DNA from: Haloarcula pelagica
GTDB taxonomy: Archaea; Halobacteriota; Halobacteria; Halobacteriales; Haloarculaceae
DNA: 64,000 bases
Reading direction: 5' to 3'
NCBI RefSeq assembly: GCF_030127105.1
Contig: NZ_CP126163.1
Location: forward strand, 124,001 to 188,000
Under the pieces are notes generated by a model that saw only the letters and a list, made by a program, of their open reading frames with translations, did not search any database and had not been told where the DNA came from. Below are positions 42,388-62,383 of this stretch, piece after piece. The stretch's first letter is position 1; each line of letters opens with the position of its first letter. Position numbers and translations under genes: made by a program.

Positions 42388-42765
42388 TACAGAACCGCGT
42401 CAAGGACAAAGCGCGAGAGGCTGGCATTCCGGCCAAATACGTCCGACGGGAGTACACGAGTACAGACCCACGATCCACCGTGAAACGAACGAGAAACACT
42501 CGCAAATGACTCTCTCGGCGGTCCATGGGTGGACCCCCTACCAGCGATAGCTGCACTTAGCTGGTATTCCCCATGTGTGGGTAGCCGCACCGTTCACGAC
42601 GCGGAGGTTCTCACAGGCGGAACAGGCCGGGTGTCTTGGGGCTAAGCAGCATCCGGGATGAAACGCTCATTACTCGGCTTCTTTCACACGGACCAGTTAG
42701 CAGGACTGTTCAAACTTACTACCTATTGAGAGTTCTAACAAGGCTGAATTACCCTACACCCACAC
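42388..42765. other. Decayed sequence, possibly IS200/IS605 remnant
   Basis: The plus frame at 42394-42508 reads NRVKDKAREAGIPAKYVRRE, resembling the segment before the zinc finger of TnpB. The end (GGGTGTCTTGGGGCTAAGCAG, 42632-42652 region) resembles GAGTGTCTTGGGACTCCC at about 60329. No intact gene. Confidence 0.35.
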
Positions 42766-43097
42766 ACCACCGTGCAAGTGTTCCTAGGTGAAGAGATGGA
42801 GTAGGTGTTCTTGAATTGCTTTGGTCCACACACGCATACACGCAATAGATGGTATCCTCAGACAAATTTACAAGTTTCGTTGAGTAACTACTACACTACC
42901 ACTAGTCGTTAATAAATATTTTATTGTATAGGTGAAATAGGCCTCTAATAGTATATTTCGCACTTATCTGTTTATACAACTCCGTCATTTAGCTATTTGA
43001 CCCCTCTCACTTGTTATCACCAAGAACACTTGCACGGTGGTGTGTGTATGTTCCCTCGATCCGACTCAACGAGAACACTTGAAACACATGCAGGGTA
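42766..43097. other. Probable replication origin: inverted repeats flanking an AT-rich core
   Basis: ACACACCACCGTGCAAGTGTT at 42766 (inverted) faces AACACTTGCACGGTGGTGTG at 43025, with a strongly AT-rich stretch between (about 42890-43000, including TAATAAATATTTTATTGTA). A degenerate third copy (GAACACTTG...ATGCAGGGTAGTG) at about 43073-43100 runs into the orc gene start. Inverted Orc-binding repeats around an AT-rich unwinding element next to orc1/cdc6 is the standard haloarchaeal origin layout. Confidence 0.75.
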
Positions 43098-44468
43098 GTG
43101 GATGATTTTATTACTGAAGATGGGGAAGTGGGAAGTAAGATGGTACAGACGGACGAGAATCCGTTCGAGGGAAAAGATCCGATCTTCAAGGCGAAACAAC
43201 CACTCAAAAAGGACAGCTTTGACCCTGATACAATCTTCCACCGTGACGAAGAGATAAACCACTACGTTAATTCCCTCCAAGATGTCGTTGTCGGTCATGA
43301 TCCTAACAATGTGTTCGTGTATGGTCCGACAGGTGTCGGAAAAACAGCTGTAACCAAGTGGGTTCGAGACAAACTGCTTGAAAAAGCGAGTGAGCAGGAT
43401 GTTCCCCTCAAAATTGTCGGCCCGGTCAACTGCCGCAACTACAAATCATCCTATCGGCTTGTCAGTCGGCTTGTCAATGAGTTTCGGGAACCAGGAGACA
43501 AGCTCCCGAAAAGTGGATACAGCACGGATACCGTCTTTGAGTTCCTTTACGAGGAGATTGAATCTGTTGGCGGGAACGTTCTGATTATCCTTGATGAAAT
43601 TGACAACATCCCTCCTGATGCCCGGAACGATTTCCTTTACGACCTTCCAAGAGCAGAAGCAAGTGAGAACGCAGCAATCGACCAAGCTCGAATTGGTCTC
43701 ATCGGTATCTCGAACGATCTGAAGTTCGTTGACTCTCTTGAACCGAAAGTGAAGAGTACTTTGGGGGAGCGGGAAATCAAATTTGGGCCATACGATGCAA
43801 ATGAACTTCGTGATATCCTCGGTTATTATGCGGATCTCTCGTTCCATAACGACGTTCTCAGCACTGAAGTGGTTCCACTCGCGGCAGCGTTCACTGCTCA
43901 GGAGCGTGGGGATGTTCGGCAAGGTCTGAAAATTCTCGAAAAAGCTGGTGAATACGCCCGAATGGACGGGTCAACAGTCGTCACAGAAGACTACACTCGC
44001 CGTGCGACTGAATCGATTGAGACTGATGAGATACTCGACTGTTTCAAGAATGATCTTACCCGCCAACAAGCACTGACTTATATTGCCACAACACTTGCGA
44101 TTATCGAGCCAGAACACGACGCACGGACGAAACGGATCTACAGTCTCTATTCGTCGATTGCTGAAGCGGCCGATAGCAAGGTCCGCTCGGAGCGGAAAAT
44201 CTACGAGTTCCTTGACCAGCTGTCGATGCAAGGATTCGTTCGGTCTGAAGACCGCAACCTAGGCAGAGGTGGTGGGCGACGGTTCGTATACCAGGTGACT
44301 GACGATCCTGTTGATATCATTAATGCCGTCGTCAAGTCAGATTACAGTGGGGCGCTCCCAAACAATGTCTGGAATATCTTGAAACACCACAAAGAAGACG
44401 AGTCGACATCGTTCGAAGCACCTGACCCGGACGACAAAAAACAGCAGCAGATATGGCAGTTCACGTAG
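43098..44468 (+). CDS. Orc1/Cdc6-family replication initiator
   Basis: 456 residues from GTG 43098; ATG at 43140 (MVQTDENPFEGKDPIFKAKQ) is an alternative that clears the repeat. AAA+ motifs: Walker A GPTGVGKTAVTKW, Walker B NVLIILDEIDNIP, sensor 1 IGLIGISNDLKF, sensor 2 in the GDVRQGLKILEKAGEYAR region. The C-terminal winged helix (about 330-420) includes DSKVRSERKIYEFLDQLSMQ and GRRFVYQVTDDP. It binds origin repeats and loads the replicative helicase. Its repeats on both sides suggest it serves this origin. Confidence 0.92.
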   Translation: MDDFITEDGEVGSKMVQTDENPFEGKDPIFKAKQPLKKDSFDPDTIFHRDEEINHYVNSLQDVVVGHDPNNVFVYGPTGVGKTAVTKWVRDKLLEKASEQDVPLKIVGPVNCRNYKSSYRLVSRLVNEFREPGDKLPKSGYSTDTVFEFLYEEIESVGGNVLIILDEIDNIPPDARNDFLYDLPRAEASENAAIDQARIGLIGISNDLKFVDSLEPKVKSTLGEREIKFGPYDANELRDILGYYADLSFHNDVLSTEVVPLAAAFTAQERGDVRQGLKILEKAGEYARMDGSTVVTEDYTRRATESIETDEILDCFKNDLTRQQALTYIATTLAIIEPEHDARTKRIYSLYSSIAEAADSKVRSERKIYEFLDQLSMQGFVRSEDRNLGRGGGRRFVYQVTDDPVDIINAVVKSDYSGALPNNVWNILKHHKEDESTSFEAPDPDDKKQQQIWQFT

Positions 44469-44469
44469 C

Positions 44470-44653
44470 AAAGTCAACGACCCCACCCTACTTCGCTCAG
44501 TCTGATGACTTCGCTCGTTGAGGGTGGGGCTTGTCCGTGTCCTCGTCCTCGAACCCGGTCCGGGTGGGCGGTAAATCCGCCACTCGGCGTCACCGTTCCA
44601 GACTTCAGGGCAAGTTGACTGTTGCCCGTCCGCTGAGACGACTGTTGAACCTC
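44470..44653 (-). repeat. Inverted remnant of a tnpB 3' end
   Basis: The complement matches 47536-47725, the 3' end of the intact tnpB gene and its element end (shared CAACAGTCGTCTC.GCGGACGG, CAAGCCCCAC.CTCAACGAGC). It lies between orc and the downstream repeats. Confidence 0.75.
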
Positions 44654-44657
44654 TGTA

Positions 44658-44717
44658 ACACTTGCAGGGTGGTGTAGGTCTGAGTGTATGCATCGAACAC
44701 TTGCAAGGTGGTGTGTA
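44658..44717 (+). repeat. Two direct Orc-type repeats downstream of orc
   Basis: AACACTTGCAGGGTGGTGTA (44660) and AACACTTGCAAGGTGGTGTG (44697) with spacer GGTC.GAGTGTATGCATCG. The same pair with nearly the same spacer is repeated at 45127-45186. Confidence 0.8.
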
Positions 44718-44833
44718 CAGCTGTGTGATTAAGACCAATCGATCTTGCGCAGGAGGATGAAGAAAATTGTGCCACAGAGCACGTATAGGTGTCTCTCCGA
44801 TTCACGCCAGTTCAGCCCCAACGGAGGCGTTGT

Positions 44834-44932
44834 ATGTACCTCGGCATCAACACCCACAAACGGTATTCGCAGGTTGCCGTCGTACGCGACGGTGGCTCTC
44901 GCCCCATCGAGGAATATCGAAAGACAAGCTAA
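44834..44932 (+). pseudogene. IS110-type transposase N-terminal remnant
   Basis: MYLGINTHKRYSQVAVVRDG followed by GSRPIEEYRKTS and a stop. The 'Y.GI.THK.YSQVAV' start matches the N-terminal catalytic Asp region of IS110-family DEDD transposases, here with Asp to Asn. The sequence that follows to about 45067 (AFQLRCELYRKPGDEALKHA) is another fragment that I cannot assign firmly. Confidence 0.55.
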
Positions 44933-45067
44933 CACCGTATCTCAGAGCCTTTCAGCTCCGCTGCGAACTCTACAGAAAACCAGGTGACGAAGCGCTCAAA
45001 CATGCTCTCGACGCTGCCTTCTGGAAATCAACAGCGTGCTTCACAAGAGCGAAGACCAATTACTGGA

Positions 45068-45186
45068 CCAAAACACTTGCACAGTGGTGTGTCCGAGCGC
45101 AGACGTTGGAGAAGAGGTTAAAAAAGAACACTTGCAGGGTGGTGTAGGTCCGAGTGTATGCATCGAACACTTGCAAGGTGGTGTGT
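45068..45186 (+). repeat. Three Orc-type repeats
   Basis: AACACTTGCACAGTGGTGTG (45069), AACACTTGCAGGGTGGTGTA (45130) and AACACTTGCAAGGTGGTGTG (45167). The last two duplicate the 44658-44717 pair. Confidence 0.8.
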
Positions 45187-45345
45187 CCGCTTGACCCGCG
45201 TAACACGTCGAAGCGTTGCTTGACGTGTGGGTTTACCCACGACGACAACCCCAGCAAGAGTCGTTCGAGTGTCAGAAGTGTGGGTGTGAGAATCACGCAG
45301 ATTACGAATGCGTCTTCAGGCTCGGGAGGAAATCAATCTCCCACA
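45187..45345 (+). pseudogene. TnpB C-terminal remnant
   Basis: Read across a frameshift: NTSKRCLTCGFTHDDNP then QQESFECQKCGCENHADYE. These are the zinc finger (CxxC...CxxC) and RuvC-III region of a TnpB of the IS1341 type. Only this piece remains. Confidence 0.7.
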
Positions 45346-45965
45346 TCATGGTCGGACTCTTTATCTGTCAAAAGTCTGTAGTCAATGTAGCTATCTATTT
45401 CTGACCGAATAGACCGAGTAGCACCCGTTGTCACTCGTTCAAATATTTCGCCACTAAATAATGCTGTCAAGAAGTCAGCGACCATATCAGGATCTATATC
45501 TCTGAAATCACCAGATTCAATACCATTCTGCACGATTTCTTTTACCCTGTCACGAAAGATATTTTGCGATCTATCAATCTGCTCTCGGAATTTTTTGTCT
45601 TGCGCTGCTTGCATTCGCAACTCCGTCAATACAATTTCATAGTCTCGGGCTTGTTGCTCATTGTCCTGAGGGATGACTTGATCAAAGAGGCTCCGAAGTT
45701 GAGTTTCAGGGTCACCATCATCGGGAACAGGCATTCCGATCTGTACGAACCGCTCAAGTAAGTAGTCAAGAAGATCTAGTAGGACCTCATCTTTTCCATC
45801 ATAATGATAAAAAACCAGTCCTTCTGACTTGGGAAAATGCTCACTAATTCGGTCTATCGTGAGATCTGCATATCCGTGTTCGGCCAGAGCAGTGAATGTA
45901 GCTTTCAAGATTGCTGTCTTGGTCTCATCAGTTTTGTCGGCAAAGAGGGGGGTTCTATCTTCCAT
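45333..45965 (-). CDS. TetR-family transcriptional regulator
   Basis: 210 residues. The N-terminal HTH is typical: ETKTAILKATFTALAEHGYA, then DLTIDRISEHFPKSEGLVFY and HYDGKDEVLLDLLDYLLERF. The C-terminal helical domain would bind a ligand. AT-rich upstream region. Related in build to the TetR at 59287 (shared GYA.L.I.RI, Y.HYD.KD, EFREQ, G.FRDID). It may control the RND-type exporter at 52.8 kb, though IS debris lies between them. Confidence 0.85.
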   Translation of the reverse strand: MEDRTPLFADKTDETKTAILKATFTALAEHGYADLTIDRISEHFPKSEGLVFYHYDGKDEVLLDLLDYLLERFVQIGMPVPDDGDPETQLRSLFDQVIPQDNEQQARDYEIVLTELRMQAAQDKKFREQIDRSQNIFRDRVKEIVQNGIESGDFRDIDPDMVADFLTALFSGEIFERVTTGATRSIRSEIDSYIDYRLLTDKESDHDVGD

Positions 45966-46443: not shown

Positions 46444-47700
46444 GTGGCAGACGACTATGTGCGCCGGACAGCAATCACCCGCCTCTCGGTAGATAGCAAG
46501 CAACGCGAGCTGCTTGAGAAAACCATCTCTGAGTGGAAGCGTGGTTGCCAACTCGCCACGGATATGGCGTGGGGCAAATGCAACGCCAAGAGCGACGTAC
46601 AACCCCTCGCCTACGACGACGTGCGCGAGCACACCGACCTCGGGAGTCAGCACGCGATTCTCGCCACCCACCAAGCCGCCCAAGCCATCACCGGCTGTAT
46701 CGAACGCCGGTCTAACGGCGAGAAGGTCAGCAAGCCCACCTTCACCGCACCGACAGTGAAGTACGACACCCGGACCATGACGCTGTTTGATGATGATACC
46801 GTGTCGCTCTCCACAACGGAGAGTCGCGTCCGGTGTGACCTTGCTCTCCCTGACGCCGACGACGGCTACCAACGACAGTACCTCGACTCTGACGAATGGA
46901 GCGTTACGGAAAGTACACTCACCGCCCGCGACGGCAACTACTTTTTACACATCGGCTTCCGCCGACACAAGACCGACACCGAACGGAACACCGCCGAGGA
47001 CGGAACGGTTCTCGGGGTTGACCTCGGTATCGAAAACCTTGCCGTCACCAGTACCGCCTCCTTCGTCAGCGGGCGGGAGTTGACCCACGACCTCCGCGAG
47101 TTCGAGAAGGTACGCGCCGGACTCCAACAGACAGGCACGCGAAGCGCCCACCGGACACTCGAACAATCGAGTGGCAGCGAACTACGGTACATCCGTGACG
47201 TACTACACCGAGCGTCGAACGCCATTGTAGACGAAGCACTCCGATACGAGTGTGACGTGATTGTATTCGAGGATTTAACTCATATTCGCGAGCGCACGGG
47301 TGCGTCGTGGGGCCACAAGTGGGCGTTCCGAACGCTGTACGAACAAGTCGAGTACAAAGCCGAAGCGGAAGGCATTTCGGTGAAACAAGTGGGTTCGGCG
47401 TACACGTCCAAGCGGTGCGCCGAGTGTGGATTCACGGCAGGGGAGAATCGCCCGACTCGCACCGACTTCCAGTGCGTGAAATGCGGGTCGGAAGCGAACG
47501 CAGACTACAACGCGGCGAAGAACATTGGTATGCGGTACGTCCGCCGAGGCCAACAGTCGTCTCGGCGGACGGGCAACAGTCAACTTGCCCTAAAGTCTGG
47601 AACGGTGACGTCGAGTGGCGGCTTTACGGCCCACCCTGTCGGGTTCGAGATGGAGGACACGGACAAGCCCCACTCTCAACGAGCGAAGTCGTCAGACTGA
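46444..47700 (+). CDS. tnpB: TnpB-family RNA-guided nuclease (RuvC residues intact)
   Basis: 418 residues from GTG 46444 (VADDYVRRTAITRLSVDSKQ). RuvC-I Asp in VLGVDLGIENLAV, RuvC-II Glu in DVIVFEDLTHIRERTGASWG, zinc finger CAECGFTAGENRPTRTDFQC with KCGSEAN, and RuvC-III Asp in NADYNAAKNIG. Of the three full tnpB genes in this window only this one keeps the catalytic Glu. There is no tnpA. The element ends near 47725 and cuts the adjoining minus-strand membrane gene. Confidence 0.9.
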   Translation: MADDYVRRTAITRLSVDSKQRELLEKTISEWKRGCQLATDMAWGKCNAKSDVQPLAYDDVREHTDLGSQHAILATHQAAQAITGCIERRSNGEKVSKPTFTAPTVKYDTRTMTLFDDDTVSLSTTESRVRCDLALPDADDGYQRQYLDSDEWSVTESTLTARDGNYFLHIGFRRHKTDTERNTAEDGTVLGVDLGIENLAVTSTASFVSGRELTHDLREFEKVRAGLQQTGTRSAHRTLEQSSGSELRYIRDVLHRASNAIVDEALRYECDVIVFEDLTHIRERTGASWGHKWAFRTLYEQVEYKAEAEGISVKQVGSAYTSKRCAECGFTAGENRPTRTDFQCVKCGSEANADYNAAKNIGMRYVRRGQQSSRRTGNSQLALKSGTVTSSGGFTAHPVGFEMEDTDKPHSQRAKSSD

Positions 47701-47723
47701 GTGAAGTAGGGTGGGGTAGTTGA

Positions 47724-48022
47724 CCCACGGCGATTGAGGGCATCGGGAGCATGTTGATACTGTCCGTTTCGAGAAGCCGTTTGGCCAAAATGATCACACC
47801 CGCGAAAACAATGATTGACGGATAGGATCGAAACAGGCGAACGGACCAGACTAACGAATCCAGGACGTTTCGACGAATTGTGGATATCTCGATATTACGG
47901 CAATCAAGACATCCACAGCCATCAACATCGTCTTGGGTCTTGATCGTCGGTACCACGTCATCCGTAGTTGTGTCGCCGGCAGTAGAAGCTCTTCGGACCG
48001 ATGTGTCGGTATGTTCACTCAT
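47724..48022 (-). pseudogene. Membrane protein gene (DUF7847-like) truncated by a tnpB element
   Basis: MSEHTDTSVRRASTAGDTTT, a Cys pair (VDGCGCLDCRNIEIS) and one hydrophobic segment (SYPSIIVFAGVIILAKRLLE) are followed by the end of the tnpB element, after which the frame is foreign. The start overlaps the stop of the HTH gene (48019), so the two were an operon. Confidence 0.7.
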
Positions 48023-48205: not shown

Positions 48206-49721
48206 TGACCTCCTCCGCGCCCTGACGGGCGCGGCTTCCCGAACCGCACCGCAAGCGTTGGGATATTTGCCGGTCTACGGGCAGACCTGTTCTTGTGGGG
48301 CGACTCTCCCCGTCGATTTGTCGAACAGGCGCACCGATGGCTGGGCCAGACAGCCGTTACTCCTATCCACAGAGGGACTCGGAGTTACCGTCGCTCGCAT
48401 ATTCTCCGCCGCGTTCAAGTCGCTGTTAGCAACCAACTCGCAGTTCTCACAGACGTACAGACCACGTTCGACACGGTTCGAGTCGGCTTTCATCCTACAC
48501 GCACAGCACGTTATCGACGTCGCAAGTTCGTACTCATCAACACGCTCCACGTCGATGCCACGTTCTTCAGCCTTGTACTCGATGTGCTGAATCAGCGTAT
48601 CAAACGCCCAGTCGTGCAGGCGCTTGTTCCCGTGGCGACCCCAGTCCTCATCCGCACGAATGTTCTTGGGATGCCCGACCGCTATCGTCTCCACGCCACG
48701 GTCTGCACATTGCTCCACGATATCTTTCGAGAGCGCGTGTAGAAAGTGGGTCTGCCGGCGAGATTTCTTCTGGCGTGCCCACCCTGCATAGGTGCTAAGG
48801 CCGTTCTCGCCTTCCGTGTCGTATTCTTCCTGGCGGAAATAGTGGGCGTCTTCTTTCAGCGCGCTCCCCGGATACAGCAGTGTCTCATCCCCGACTGAGA
48901 CAGCCGCAGTATTACACATCCCGAGGTCAACACCAGCCGTCTTCTCACCAGACGAGTCAGCGGCGTCGATGGCCACTTTGCAGACAAAGTGGAGTTCCCA
49001 GTGGTCGCCGGTCCAGACGATGCGGACCTGTTGTACGTCTTCGACGGCAGTCAGGTCTGTGTCTGGCCCGGTATCGTATTCGCAGAGAACGAAGTCGCTC
49101 CACCCATCTTTTAGGTTCTTCCCCTTCGAGAGGCGGACTTGCTGGTGGTCGGTGTCGAGTTTGAAGCCGTCTTCTTTGAACGTGATTGTTGAGCGTGGTC
49201 GTTCGTCACCGTGTTTGCGGTAGCCAGGTGGGTTGGCGTCTGGGTCGTCTTGTTCGAACCAGGACTGGAAAGCACCAGTCAATTCTTCGACGATTGCTTG
49301 GCTTGATTGGGCGTTCAAATCTTTCCAGCACGGTTGGTTCTTCATGTAGGACTTGAGCGGTCCTTCCTCGGGGATGTCACCGGTTTCGTCCCAGATGCGG
49401 CCAGCCGTCCACCGAGCGACGTTCCAGATTTTACTGCCGGAACGAGCGAGTGAATCGAGGTCTTGCACGACACCCTCACGGTCGTTGGTGAGCGCCGCTG
49501 TGATGGTGCGCGTCGTGACCAGATTCACTATACATAGCCTATGACAGTACGCTGACTTAATTGCTTCGGGTCGGCGTTGAATATCCAGTCAAGCGAAGTA
49601 GTGATGACCTCCCCCAGAGCTTACGCGATTCACTCCCGCCCTGTTCGCTTCTCGGTTCCGACCTGAGGGGTCGGAACACTCGTCACTCACCGGAAGGGCG
49701 GGATTCTCTCGCTGTATCAAG
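48206..49721 (-). mobile_element. IS1341-type element 2, tnpB only
   Basis: Left end (49618-49715) nearly equals 3285-3380; right-end hairpin CCGCGCCC TGAC GGGCGCGG at about 48214-48233. No small divergent ORF is present, unlike the copy at 1.7-3.4 kb. Ends accurate to a few bases. Confidence 0.75.
48275..49528 (-). CDS. tnpB: TnpB-family protein with altered RuvC-II
   Basis: 417 residues, starting MNLVTTRTITAALTNDREGV. RuvC-I Asp in TAGVDLGMCNTAAVSV; zinc finger CCACRMKADSNRVERGLYVC with NCELVANS; RuvC-III Asp in NSDLNAAENM. At the RuvC-II site it reads ETIAVGHPKNIR, with Gly where Glu is expected. It differs from the 1725 protein in sequence although the element ends match. Confidence 0.85.
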   Translation of the reverse strand: MNLVTTRTITAALTNDREGVVQDLDSLARSGSKIWNVARWTAGRIWDETGDIPEEGPLKSYMKNQPCWKDLNAQSSQAIVEELTGAFQSWFEQDDPDANPPGYRKHGDERPRSTITFKEDGFKLDTDHQQVRLSKGKNLKDGWSDFVLCEYDTGPDTDLTAVEDVQQVRIVWTGDHWELHFVCKVAIDAADSSGEKTAGVDLGMCNTAAVSVGDETLLYPGSALKEDAHYFRQEEYDTEGENGLSTYAGWARQKKSRRQTHFLHALSKDIVEQCADRGVETIAVGHPKNIRADEDWGRHGNKRLHDWAFDTLIQHIEYKAEERGIDVERVDEYELATSITCCACRMKADSNRVERGLYVCENCELVANSDLNAAENMRATVTPSPSVDRSNGCLAQPSVRLFDKSTGRVAPQEQVCP

Positions 49722-60354: not shown

Positions 60355-60912
60355 TCACTCAATTCCGTAACCAACAATATGGGCAGCATCGAGGAGCGAG
60401 AGGTCATCATTCGCACCGGCTATCAGTACAATTTCATAGACATCTGTCTTTGGAACTTCCCCATTGAATTCGTCTTCTAACGCTCGCTTCGCTCCCCGAA
60501 TATCATCCATTGTTTCTTGTTGAATCGTCACTGTGAGATCCACATCTCGATACTCCTTCACATTCGAACGGCGCTGCTTGATCGGGAGATTCGACATCGA
60601 AAATTCCTCTGGGATCGTATGATGCGTTTCTCCCGTTCGCAGATCACCAGCTTTACCCGCAGGAGGAAGCGAGGTCTCCGACTCTGCCTCTTTGTTGGGC
60701 GCTGTTTCATCTTCTTCAGTTGCTGTCTCTGTTTCTGTTCCAGTTGCTGAAGTCCCCACAGACTGCTTCGTGTTTTGCATTTTCTCTTCTTCTTGAGAGC
60801 CACGCTTTGTCTCCTCCTCAGCTGTGGGTTGCCCCTCTAACTCTTCGCTGTTATCGTCGCCTAGTGCGTCTGTTGAACCTGAATCGAAATTGTACCGGCC
60901 TTCTTTCCCCAT
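60355..60912 (-). CDS. ParA partner protein (185 aa)
   Basis: MGKEGRYNFDSGSTDALGDD begins a long acidic, disordered region (about 1-105, many Glu and Thr). The C-terminal 80 residues are ordered: VKEYRDVDLTVTIQQETMDD, then GAKRALEDEFNGEVPKTDVY and EIVLIAGANDDLSLLDAAHI, resembling a short RHH-like or dimerisation domain. Its ATG overlaps the ParA stop by one base (TAATG). Likely the centromere-binding partner for partition, by position. Confidence 0.75.
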   Translation of the reverse strand: MGKEGRYNFDSGSTDALGDDNSEELEGQPTAEEETKRGSQEEEKMQNTKQSVGTSATGTETETATEEDETAPNKEAESETSLPPAGKAGDLRTGETHHTIPEEFSMSNLPIKQRRSNVKEYRDVDLTVTIQQETMDDIRGAKRALEDEFNGEVPKTDVYEIVLIAGANDDLSLLDAAHIVGYGIE

Positions 60913-61853
60913 TAGGCATCCACCTCCGTTGTTGGATCTGCACCCTCAAGCAACTTCTCCGGGGTTGCGTCTCCCATCTTCATATCTTTCACATCATCCC
61001 AGCGGTCGATCGCTTCTTCGTAGCTGTACTCCCCAACCATCCACCGCCCAATCACCTTGTAGGCTAGCGGGACGTGCTCTTCGTACGATCGTAGTTCTCG
61101 TGTCTCGTCGGACTCAATGAAGCTGAAGAGATCCATCCGCTTATCCCAGGTATAGCGAAGCAGGGAGTGCTCGGGAATTGAGAAGGGACTGATTGGGATT
61201 CCCTCGCTTTCCATCTGCTCACGATATTCTTCGAAGATCTTTGCGTTTCCAACACGACAGGGTACCGTCCCGCAAATCGTCACGTCAACATTCATTCCTC
61301 GGAACCCCTTTTCGATTGCTGCTAACGTATCTTCAAGTTCTTTCTGAGAGGCTTTCCCTTTCGGGGTAAGTTCGATCGGCACCATGATGTTCTGCGCCGC
61401 GACGAGCGCGTTGTCAACTAGCTTTGTGTGGGTTGCTTGTGTATCTACAATCACCACATCGTAACCGTTGCTCAATTCTTCAATCGCGTCACGAACCACG
61501 AAAAATTGATCTGCTGCCATCCGCGGTGAATCAGCGACCGCTGATTCAAAGTTCCCCATATCCTCGTGTCCTGGCACGAGATCAAAATGCTCGGTTTCGA
61601 CAATAATTTCATCCAGTCCTATATTGTCGAACAGAACATCCATAATATTTGGTTCGACGATGTATCCAGTGTCTTCATCGTCGTACGTGAGTTCGCCATA
61701 TCCACAGTAATGCGTTAATGCCCCTCGTTGTGGATCAAGGTCTACAGCGAGGACATTATATCCGTCACGCCCGATTGCTGCCGCAGTTTGCATCGCATTT
61801 GTTGTCTTACCAGGCCCTCCGCTGGCAGACCACCAAGTGAACCCAATTGCCAT
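60912..61853 (-). CDS. ParA/Soj-family partition ATPase
   Basis: 313 residues from ATG 61853 (MAIGFTWWSASGGPGKTTNA). The deviant Walker A reads SGGPGKTT with no Lys before the GG, unlike the KGGxGKT of most ParA proteins. Walker A' is NVLAVDLDPQRGALTHYCGY, and Walker B-like YDVVIVDTQATHT. FTWWSASGGPGKTT is characteristic of haloarchaeal plasmid ParA. It moves plasmid copies with its partner. An upstream ATG at 61877 could add eight residues. AT-rich promoter region 61860-61990. Confidence 0.9.
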   Translation of the reverse strand: MAIGFTWWSASGGPGKTTNAMQTAAAIGRDGYNVLAVDLDPQRGALTHYCGYGELTYDDEDTGYIVEPNIMDVLFDNIGLDEIIVETEHFDLVPGHEDMGNFESAVADSPRMAADQFFVVRDAIEELSNGYDVVIVDTQATHTKLVDNALVAAQNIMVPIELTPKGKASQKELEDTLAAIEKGFRGMNVDVTICGTVPCRVGNAKIFEEYREQMESEGIPISPFSIPEHSLLRYTWDKRMDLFSFIESDETRELRSYEEHVPLAYKVIGRWMVGEYSYEEAIDRWDDVKDMKMGDATPEKLLEGADPTTEVDA

Positions 61854-62383
61854 ATGTAGAATAATACTGCCATCCATAATAAAAGTTCGCCAGACAAGCC
61901 ACCTTTCAACAAGATGGCCAAACAGGCGTCTGTATGGCCATATTATTTGCCTACTGTATTTTTGTTTAGTAAGTCTTCTAGAAATCTATAGAGCAAACCA
62001 TACTATAAAGCCTAAAAACACGGGTTAAAGTAAAATACGAAGCAGCGTCTTCGTTTCCTACGAGGACTAACTGACGCTCAGACGCGAATTTATCCATTGT
62101 ATGCATACTCAGCGCCTCACGAAGCATCGCCAGTTCACCTGACCTGAGTCTCCTATTCAATTGAGATGAGTCGTCAACAGTGGTCAAAGGTGCTAATCGA
62201 AGTAGAAGCTGCCGCTGTCGGCGGTGATGGCTGGTATTCGTCGGTCTGTATCTCGCAGCCTCCAAGCCCAAATCCTGCTTCGGCTCCTCGAAGAACGTCT
62301 AGATGTGCTATCGCATTCCGTAAGAGCGAATCACCTATCGATCGGTGCGTCTATTTTTTGTAGCGAGGTGCTTACCCCAACTT
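61854..62383. other. Upstream region of parA and IS border
   Basis: 530 bases. The AT-rich 61855-62035 part probably holds the parA promoter and may hold partition sites, but no clear repeat array is visible. The rest lacks a supported gene. Confidence 0.45.

Follow-up and report, generated by a model that had tools for sequence, protein, structure and literature searches.

The window, a stretch of 64,000 nucleotides of Haloarcula pelagica DNA, lies within a plasmid-sized contig (C3, 258,123 bp) that is found alongside a 3.53-Mb contig, and carries copies of one repeat on both sides of an orc1/cdc6 gene. This raises the question of whether the locus is a replication origin, to which family it belongs, and what the copies downstream of the gene do. 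The answer that we consider very probable is an oriC2-cdc6E-type origin on C3, in which an inverted pair of Orc-binding repeats (ORBs) would initiate replication, five downstream ORBs would titrate the initiator, and a composite element at the orc promoter would mediate autoregulation.

The repeat, AACACTTGCANNGTGGTGT, is present in seven full copies and one degenerate copy around an intact orc1/cdc6 (Table 1), and GGTGGTG forms the G-rich end of every ORB. In the whole 4.46-Mb genome, all matches without mismatches lie at the orc locus, none with one or two mismatches were found anywhere, and the remaining three-mismatch matches are few, at about the level of a reversed-pattern control. Because exact matches are confined to the locus genome-wide, chance can be ruled out as the source of the repeats. 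The match between the distal and proximal ORBs extends beyond the repeat itself (42756-42783), and the AT-rich core that separates them reaches 75% AT in its richest 60-mer (42910-42969). A conserved sequence element was looked for in the core across the oriC2-cdc6E family and was not found. An earlier note on this DNA had counted eight repeats and had recognized inverted Orc-binding repeats beside orc/cdc6 as an origin pattern. Its coordinates were accurate to within 0-3 bases, and the pattern holds, as an inverted ORB pair, an AT-rich core and an intact orc are all seen; seven of the eight repeats proved to be full copies, while the one near 43073 consists of a half-site and a degenerate ORB.

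Table 1. Sequence features of the orc1/cdc6 locus, in window coordinates.
Feature	Position	Strand	Remarks
Distal ORB (AACACTTGCACGGTGGTGT)	42764..42782	-	inverted; conserved in an alignment of 16 loci
AT-rich core, putative unwinding region	42784..43024		241 bp, 62.7% AT
Proximal ORB	43025..43043	+	direct orientation
Composite: half-site AACACTTGA and degenerate ORB AACACATGCAGGGTAGTGG	43074..43101	+	proposed autoregulatory operator
TATA-like box TTTTATTA of the orc promoter	43106..43113	+	position conserved, function putative
orc1/cdc6 (cdc6E type)	43140..44468	+	442 aa from ATG 43140
Solo 3' end of a TnpB (IS1341-type) element	44473..44647	-	between orc stop codon and array
Downstream ORB 1	44657..44675	+	
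Downstream ORB 2	44696..44714	+	
Chimeric IS remnants inside the array	44754..45052		left part of IS110, followed by a fragment that also occurs next to IS1595-type elements
Downstream ORB 3	45072..45090	+	
Downstream ORB 4	45127..45145	+	
Downstream ORB 5	45166..45184	+	

The Orc reading frame is intact and contains AAA domains, a Cdc6 lid (E 9.5e-20) and a Cdc6 C-terminal winged helix (4.3e-12). A GTG at 43098 is also readable as a start, but the ATG is favored because of conservation in the family and a TATA box located 34 nt before it. The protein is 74-75% identical to the single copy found in each of 15 other genomes of the genus, a copy that is chromosomal in every case where contig size permits a decision, and 85-86% identical to its counterparts at loci of Halobellus inordinatus, Halorubrum vacuolatum and Halorubrum sp. 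Hd13 (Haloferacaceae). Among phage records, Orc matches were distant only (best about 27% identity), and a search of viral contigs for the two-ORB pattern detected none.

A search for the repeat near orc genes, which had been suggested as a check, found the same ORB (AACACTTGCANGGTGGTGT) at 0-3 mismatches in all loci of the oriC2-cdc6E family. A 100/100 branch unites the Orc with Haloarcula Cdc6E and the rest of the family, within which it belongs to a separate subclade. As had been anticipated, the repeat is unlike that of the chromosomal oriC1: the ORB is of the oriC2 type and the Orc is of the cdc6E family, which 16 of the 31 other genomes in the genus lack, and an oriC1 assignment was rejected on these grounds. 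Genome G084, which we take to be Haloarcula hispanica ATCC 33960, has exactly 11 ORBs behind the gene, within an intergenic region of 722 bp. The published H. hispanica oriC2D comprises 11 ORB elements, and the intergenic region that holds them, downstream of cdc6E, measures 722 bp (PMC3936714). Since the two sets of numbers are equal, the window locus can be assigned to the oriC2-cdc6E family and, judged by its sequence, is a plasmid-borne member of it. In H. hispanica, oriC2 is an active chromosomal origin that needs Cdc6E, and it is controlled negatively by oriC2D, likely through titration of Cdc6E (PMC3936714). A separate locus (L022, G201:C3) carries three exact oriC2-type ORBs at 234848, 234907 and 236350, with the family Orc not among the matches, and is possibly a decayed origin.

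Comparisons were extended to 30 family loci from the Haloarculaceae, Haloferacaceae, Natrialbaceae, Halalkalicoccaceae and Halobacteriaceae, which include close relatives and represent perhaps 10-12 independent lineages. Every one of the 30 has an inverted ORB pair upstream of the gene and copies downstream, and the downstream ORBs, 228 in total, are without exception oriented like the gene-proximal ORB. Where downstream copies are few, the context accounts for it: the contig end cuts the array in L060, and in L074 one copy follows at once and two more lie ~1.7 kb on. Within the Haloarcula arrays, ORB columns are 97.0% conserved compared with 80.5% for spacers, a level matched in 0 of 2000 random placements, and gaps make up 0.2% and 16%, respectively. 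The higher conservation of ORB columns argues that selection acts on the downstream sites themselves.

Downstream copies are also found beyond the family. Three other Orc genes of the H. pelagica genome are each flanked on either side by repeats of their own (C4:91499, with three downstream; C2:304977, seven; C3:118887, six), and such copies are widespread in haloarchaea according to the literature (PMC3936714 and PMC3528665 among the sources). Among 87 further loci from three Orc families, one family has them wherever an inverted pair is detectable, and in the others they are sporadic. The array, which the earlier note had called unusual, is therefore not so, given its presence in all 30 loci and in other Orc families; the accompanying suggestion that it serves copy-number control or extra binding gains support from the published negative control in the H. 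hispanica relative (PMC3936714). In locus L013 and its relatives L213-L239, unlike in the oriC2 family, the downstream array runs opposite to the gene-proximal upstream copies.

The downstream ORBs could alternatively serve as an additional origin, or as a segregation site loaded with Orc, and have no regulatory function. Some haloarchaea do have ORBs downstream of the gene only (PMC3528665), and a ParA-like gene is located 16 kb away; nevertheless, a downstream inverted ORB pair was found in none of the 30 loci and oriC2D alone does not replicate in H. hispanica (PMC3936714), which makes this reading very improbable. The gene in question encodes a ParA/MinD-like ATPase (60912-61877, minus strand) and is a possible plasmid partition gene.

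We instead favor a role in titration. According to this proposal, Orc would bind the inverted ORB pair (42764 and 43025) beside the AT-rich core, and replication would start there. The five downstream ORBs, all in the same direction, would bind additional Orc and lower the amount that is free, restraining initiation and copy number. Titration is modeled on what was proposed for oriC2D of H. hispanica, where the chromosomal array acts in trans and its effect is graded with the number of ORBs (PMC3936714). For the window locus, we infer both origin activity and titration of Orc by the five sites. A different mechanism, handcuffing, would have array-bound Orc pair with origin-bound Orc and block the origin, as in bacterial iteron plasmids, rather than act by simple titration. 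The uniform direction of downstream ORBs in 30 loci would suit such pairing, as would a layout of origin sites, promoter site and downstream array that resembles those of plasmids P1 and F. The trans effect and the graded response in H. hispanica fit titration, yet they are compatible with handcuffing as well (PMC3936714), and we consider handcuffing the less likely mechanism by a wide measure.

IS remnants lie between the gene and the array and also within the five-ORB array. The TnpB 3' end matches window positions 47551-47724, the end of a full TnpB element at 46444-47724, at 91.4%, and a Haloplanus TnpB element at 94.9%; the IS110 part of the chimera matches Haloarcula sp. GH36 at 97%. The right end of the TnpB remnant is set against the orc stop codon, and any guide RNA still made from it would run antisense to the last part of orc. 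Rfam searches of the whole window, and of 44400-45400 at a relaxed threshold, gave no match in the origin. A match to sot0042 (sense overlapping transcript RNA) was obtained at 48214-48390, at the end of a TnpB-like ORF on the minus strand (48275-49528). Within the array, the 60-bp units 44657-44716 and 45127-45186 are 98% identical, which suggests that it may have grown by duplication.

A second orc gene is located on C3 just left of the window and 48 kb from the window locus (L014, C3:117387-121541; gene C3:118887-120041). Its repeat, GCTCATATTGCAAA, differs from that of the window locus and is arranged as an inverted pair upstream and six copies downstream. With a second orc and its repeats on the same contig, the window origin could be redundant. 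The cumulative GC skew of C3, a weak signal, reaches its minimum at 114.5 kb, near the second orc, as opposed to 167 kb for the window locus. It is thus conceivable that the locus is a dormant or decaying oriC2-type replicon that was captured, that the other Orc system with its inverted pair and six downstream copies took over, and that the array was broken by the insertions described above; the homologous and well-formed haloarchaeal origins oriC4 and oriC5 are dormant (PMC3528665). We regard this as unlikely. The Orc frame is intact and has kept all of its domains, the seven repeats are perfect or almost perfect, and none of the conserved elements is missing. In addition, the array of Natrinema gelatinilyticum is likewise split by an insertion, and both halves have been kept.

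The composite element provides the third part of the proposed mechanism. Its half-site begins at 43074 and is followed by the degenerate ORB at 43083-43101, which has 3 mismatches, and the element abuts the BRE position of the orc promoter. The composite is present in 30/30 family loci, and the distance from its start to the TATA-like box is 32-33 nt throughout (29 loci measured by script; L081 by eye, with the box ACTTATG), with a standard deviation of 0.5 nt in 15 representative loci. Across the same 15 loci, the proximal ORB and the composite ORB are 46-78 nt apart, and the members of the inverted pair 261-522 nt apart. Because the spacing to the TATA box is fixed while the spacing to the origin ORBs varies, we consider the composite to be tied to the promoter and not to the origin. 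Judged by its position and conservation, it is probably an operator for orc autoregulation, and the most likely sense of that regulation is repression; Orc bound at the half-site and degenerate ORB next to TATA/BRE would control its own synthesis.

If the composite were instead a third origin ORB that aids Orc loading, with no operator role, its resemblance to an ORB and its place in the origin region would be explained; its constant distance from the TATA-like box, set against the variable distance to the origin ORBs, makes that doubtful. The copy reported near 43073 is real as a repeat-like sequence, and its conservation in every locus at a fixed TATA spacing fits a promoter operator better than an origin ORB. 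No earlier description of the composite was found in the main texts of the open-licence literature. Other Orc families (L010 and its relatives L184-L212; L159, L161 and L178) also have an ORB or degenerate ORB at the orc promoter, either some 30 nt ahead of the start codon or immediately upstream of a TATA box, hinting that promoter-linked ORBs may be general among Orc families.

The history of the family can be approached through the chromosomal site. The sequences that flank oriC2 in H. hispanica are 2,656 bp apart in that species and 61 bp apart on the H. pelagica chromosome, and by this measure the latter has an empty oriC2 site. In a tree of the neighboring acyl-CoA dehydrogenase gene, 15/15 genomes with a chromosomal oriC2 fall in one clade and H. 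pelagica lies outside it. A further 14 genomes outside the clade are also without ORBs beside the acyl-CoA dehydrogenase gene, the exact empty-site junction having been read in H. pelagica only. The plasmid Orc groups with those of Halobellus, Halorubrum and Saliphagus (100/99), and an AU test rejects a group composed of the plasmid Orc and the Haloarcula chromosomal copies (p about 1e-4). The simplest reading would be that the family was inserted once into the chromosome of a single Haloarcula clade and reached the H. pelagica plasmid separately. According to a published study, oriC2-cdc6E occurs in Haloarcula only, and its acquisition preceded the divergence of the Haloarcula species (PMC4441112). 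Our results qualify this view, as about half of the present, wider genus is without oriC2-cdc6E at the site and several other families carry it; part of the discrepancy comes from today's wider definition of the genus. Two family members were not seen together in one genome, which is what incompatibility would predict, but the genus has one plasmid carrier only, and an argument for incompatibility from the co-occurrence of plasmid and chromosomal oriC2 was dropped for this lack of power.

The origin family and control by downstream repeats, the published mechanism of the family, were already known. The new points are modest: a probable operator locked to the promoter, downstream copies that all run in one direction, and a plasmid form with its empty-site history. 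A plasmid form is now supplied for an origin whose presence in the Haloarcula chromosome had been attributed to acquisition from outside, and an arrangement tested in one species is extended to 30 loci. The promoter operator, apparently undescribed, would make autoregulation of the initiator directly testable in a tractable archaeon.

The closest known system is oriC2-cdc6E of H. hispanica, which has in common with the window locus the Orc family (75% identity), the ORB sequence, the inverted upstream pair, an array of one direction directly downstream, and the promoter composite. The two differ in that the window locus is on a plasmid-sized contig with 5 downstream ORBs, whereas H. hispanica oriC2 is on the chromosome with 11, and in the ORB-to-ORB distance of the inverted pair (261 versus 354 bp). 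Unlike H. hispanica oriC2, the window locus also has an array interrupted by IS remnants and lies outside the Haloarcula chromosomal clade. The oriC2 homolog of Halorubrum lacusprofundi has, by its published description, a small downstream array of three ORBs (PMC3936714). All three blocks of the anatomy are shared by the plasmid-borne members in Natribaculum breve (CP095393) and Natrinema gelatinilyticum (NZ_CP100758) and by draft contigs of Halobellus inordinatus, Halorubrum vacuolatum and Saliphagus infecundisoli; these five have 4-8 downstream ORBs within 2 kb and an Orc that is 68-87% identical to that of the window.

Bacterial parallels are functional. In Escherichia coli, datA and autoregulation of dnaA through DnaA boxes likewise combine titration of the initiator with initiator sites in the initiator's own promoter, although datA has no homology to the window array and is far from dnaA, whereas the window array adjoins orc. 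In plasmids P1 (incC-repA-incA) and F (ori2-repE-incC), origin sites lie upstream, an operator is found at the initiator promoter and a directional array follows downstream. Only this functional layout is alike, as the initiators are unrelated, and an iteron plasmid replicon of the P1/F class was rejected for the window locus since its initiator is Orc1/Cdc6. The comparison with P1/F iteron plasmids is not made in PMC3936714. We put at about even chances the broader proposition that members of the oriC2 family are self-contained replicons, autoregulated through an operator locked to the TATA/BRE of the initiator gene and titrated by an array of one direction, that they are convergent with bacterial iteron plasmids and circulate on haloarchaeal plasmids, and that a single ancestral insertion brought the family into the chromosome of one Haloarcula clade.
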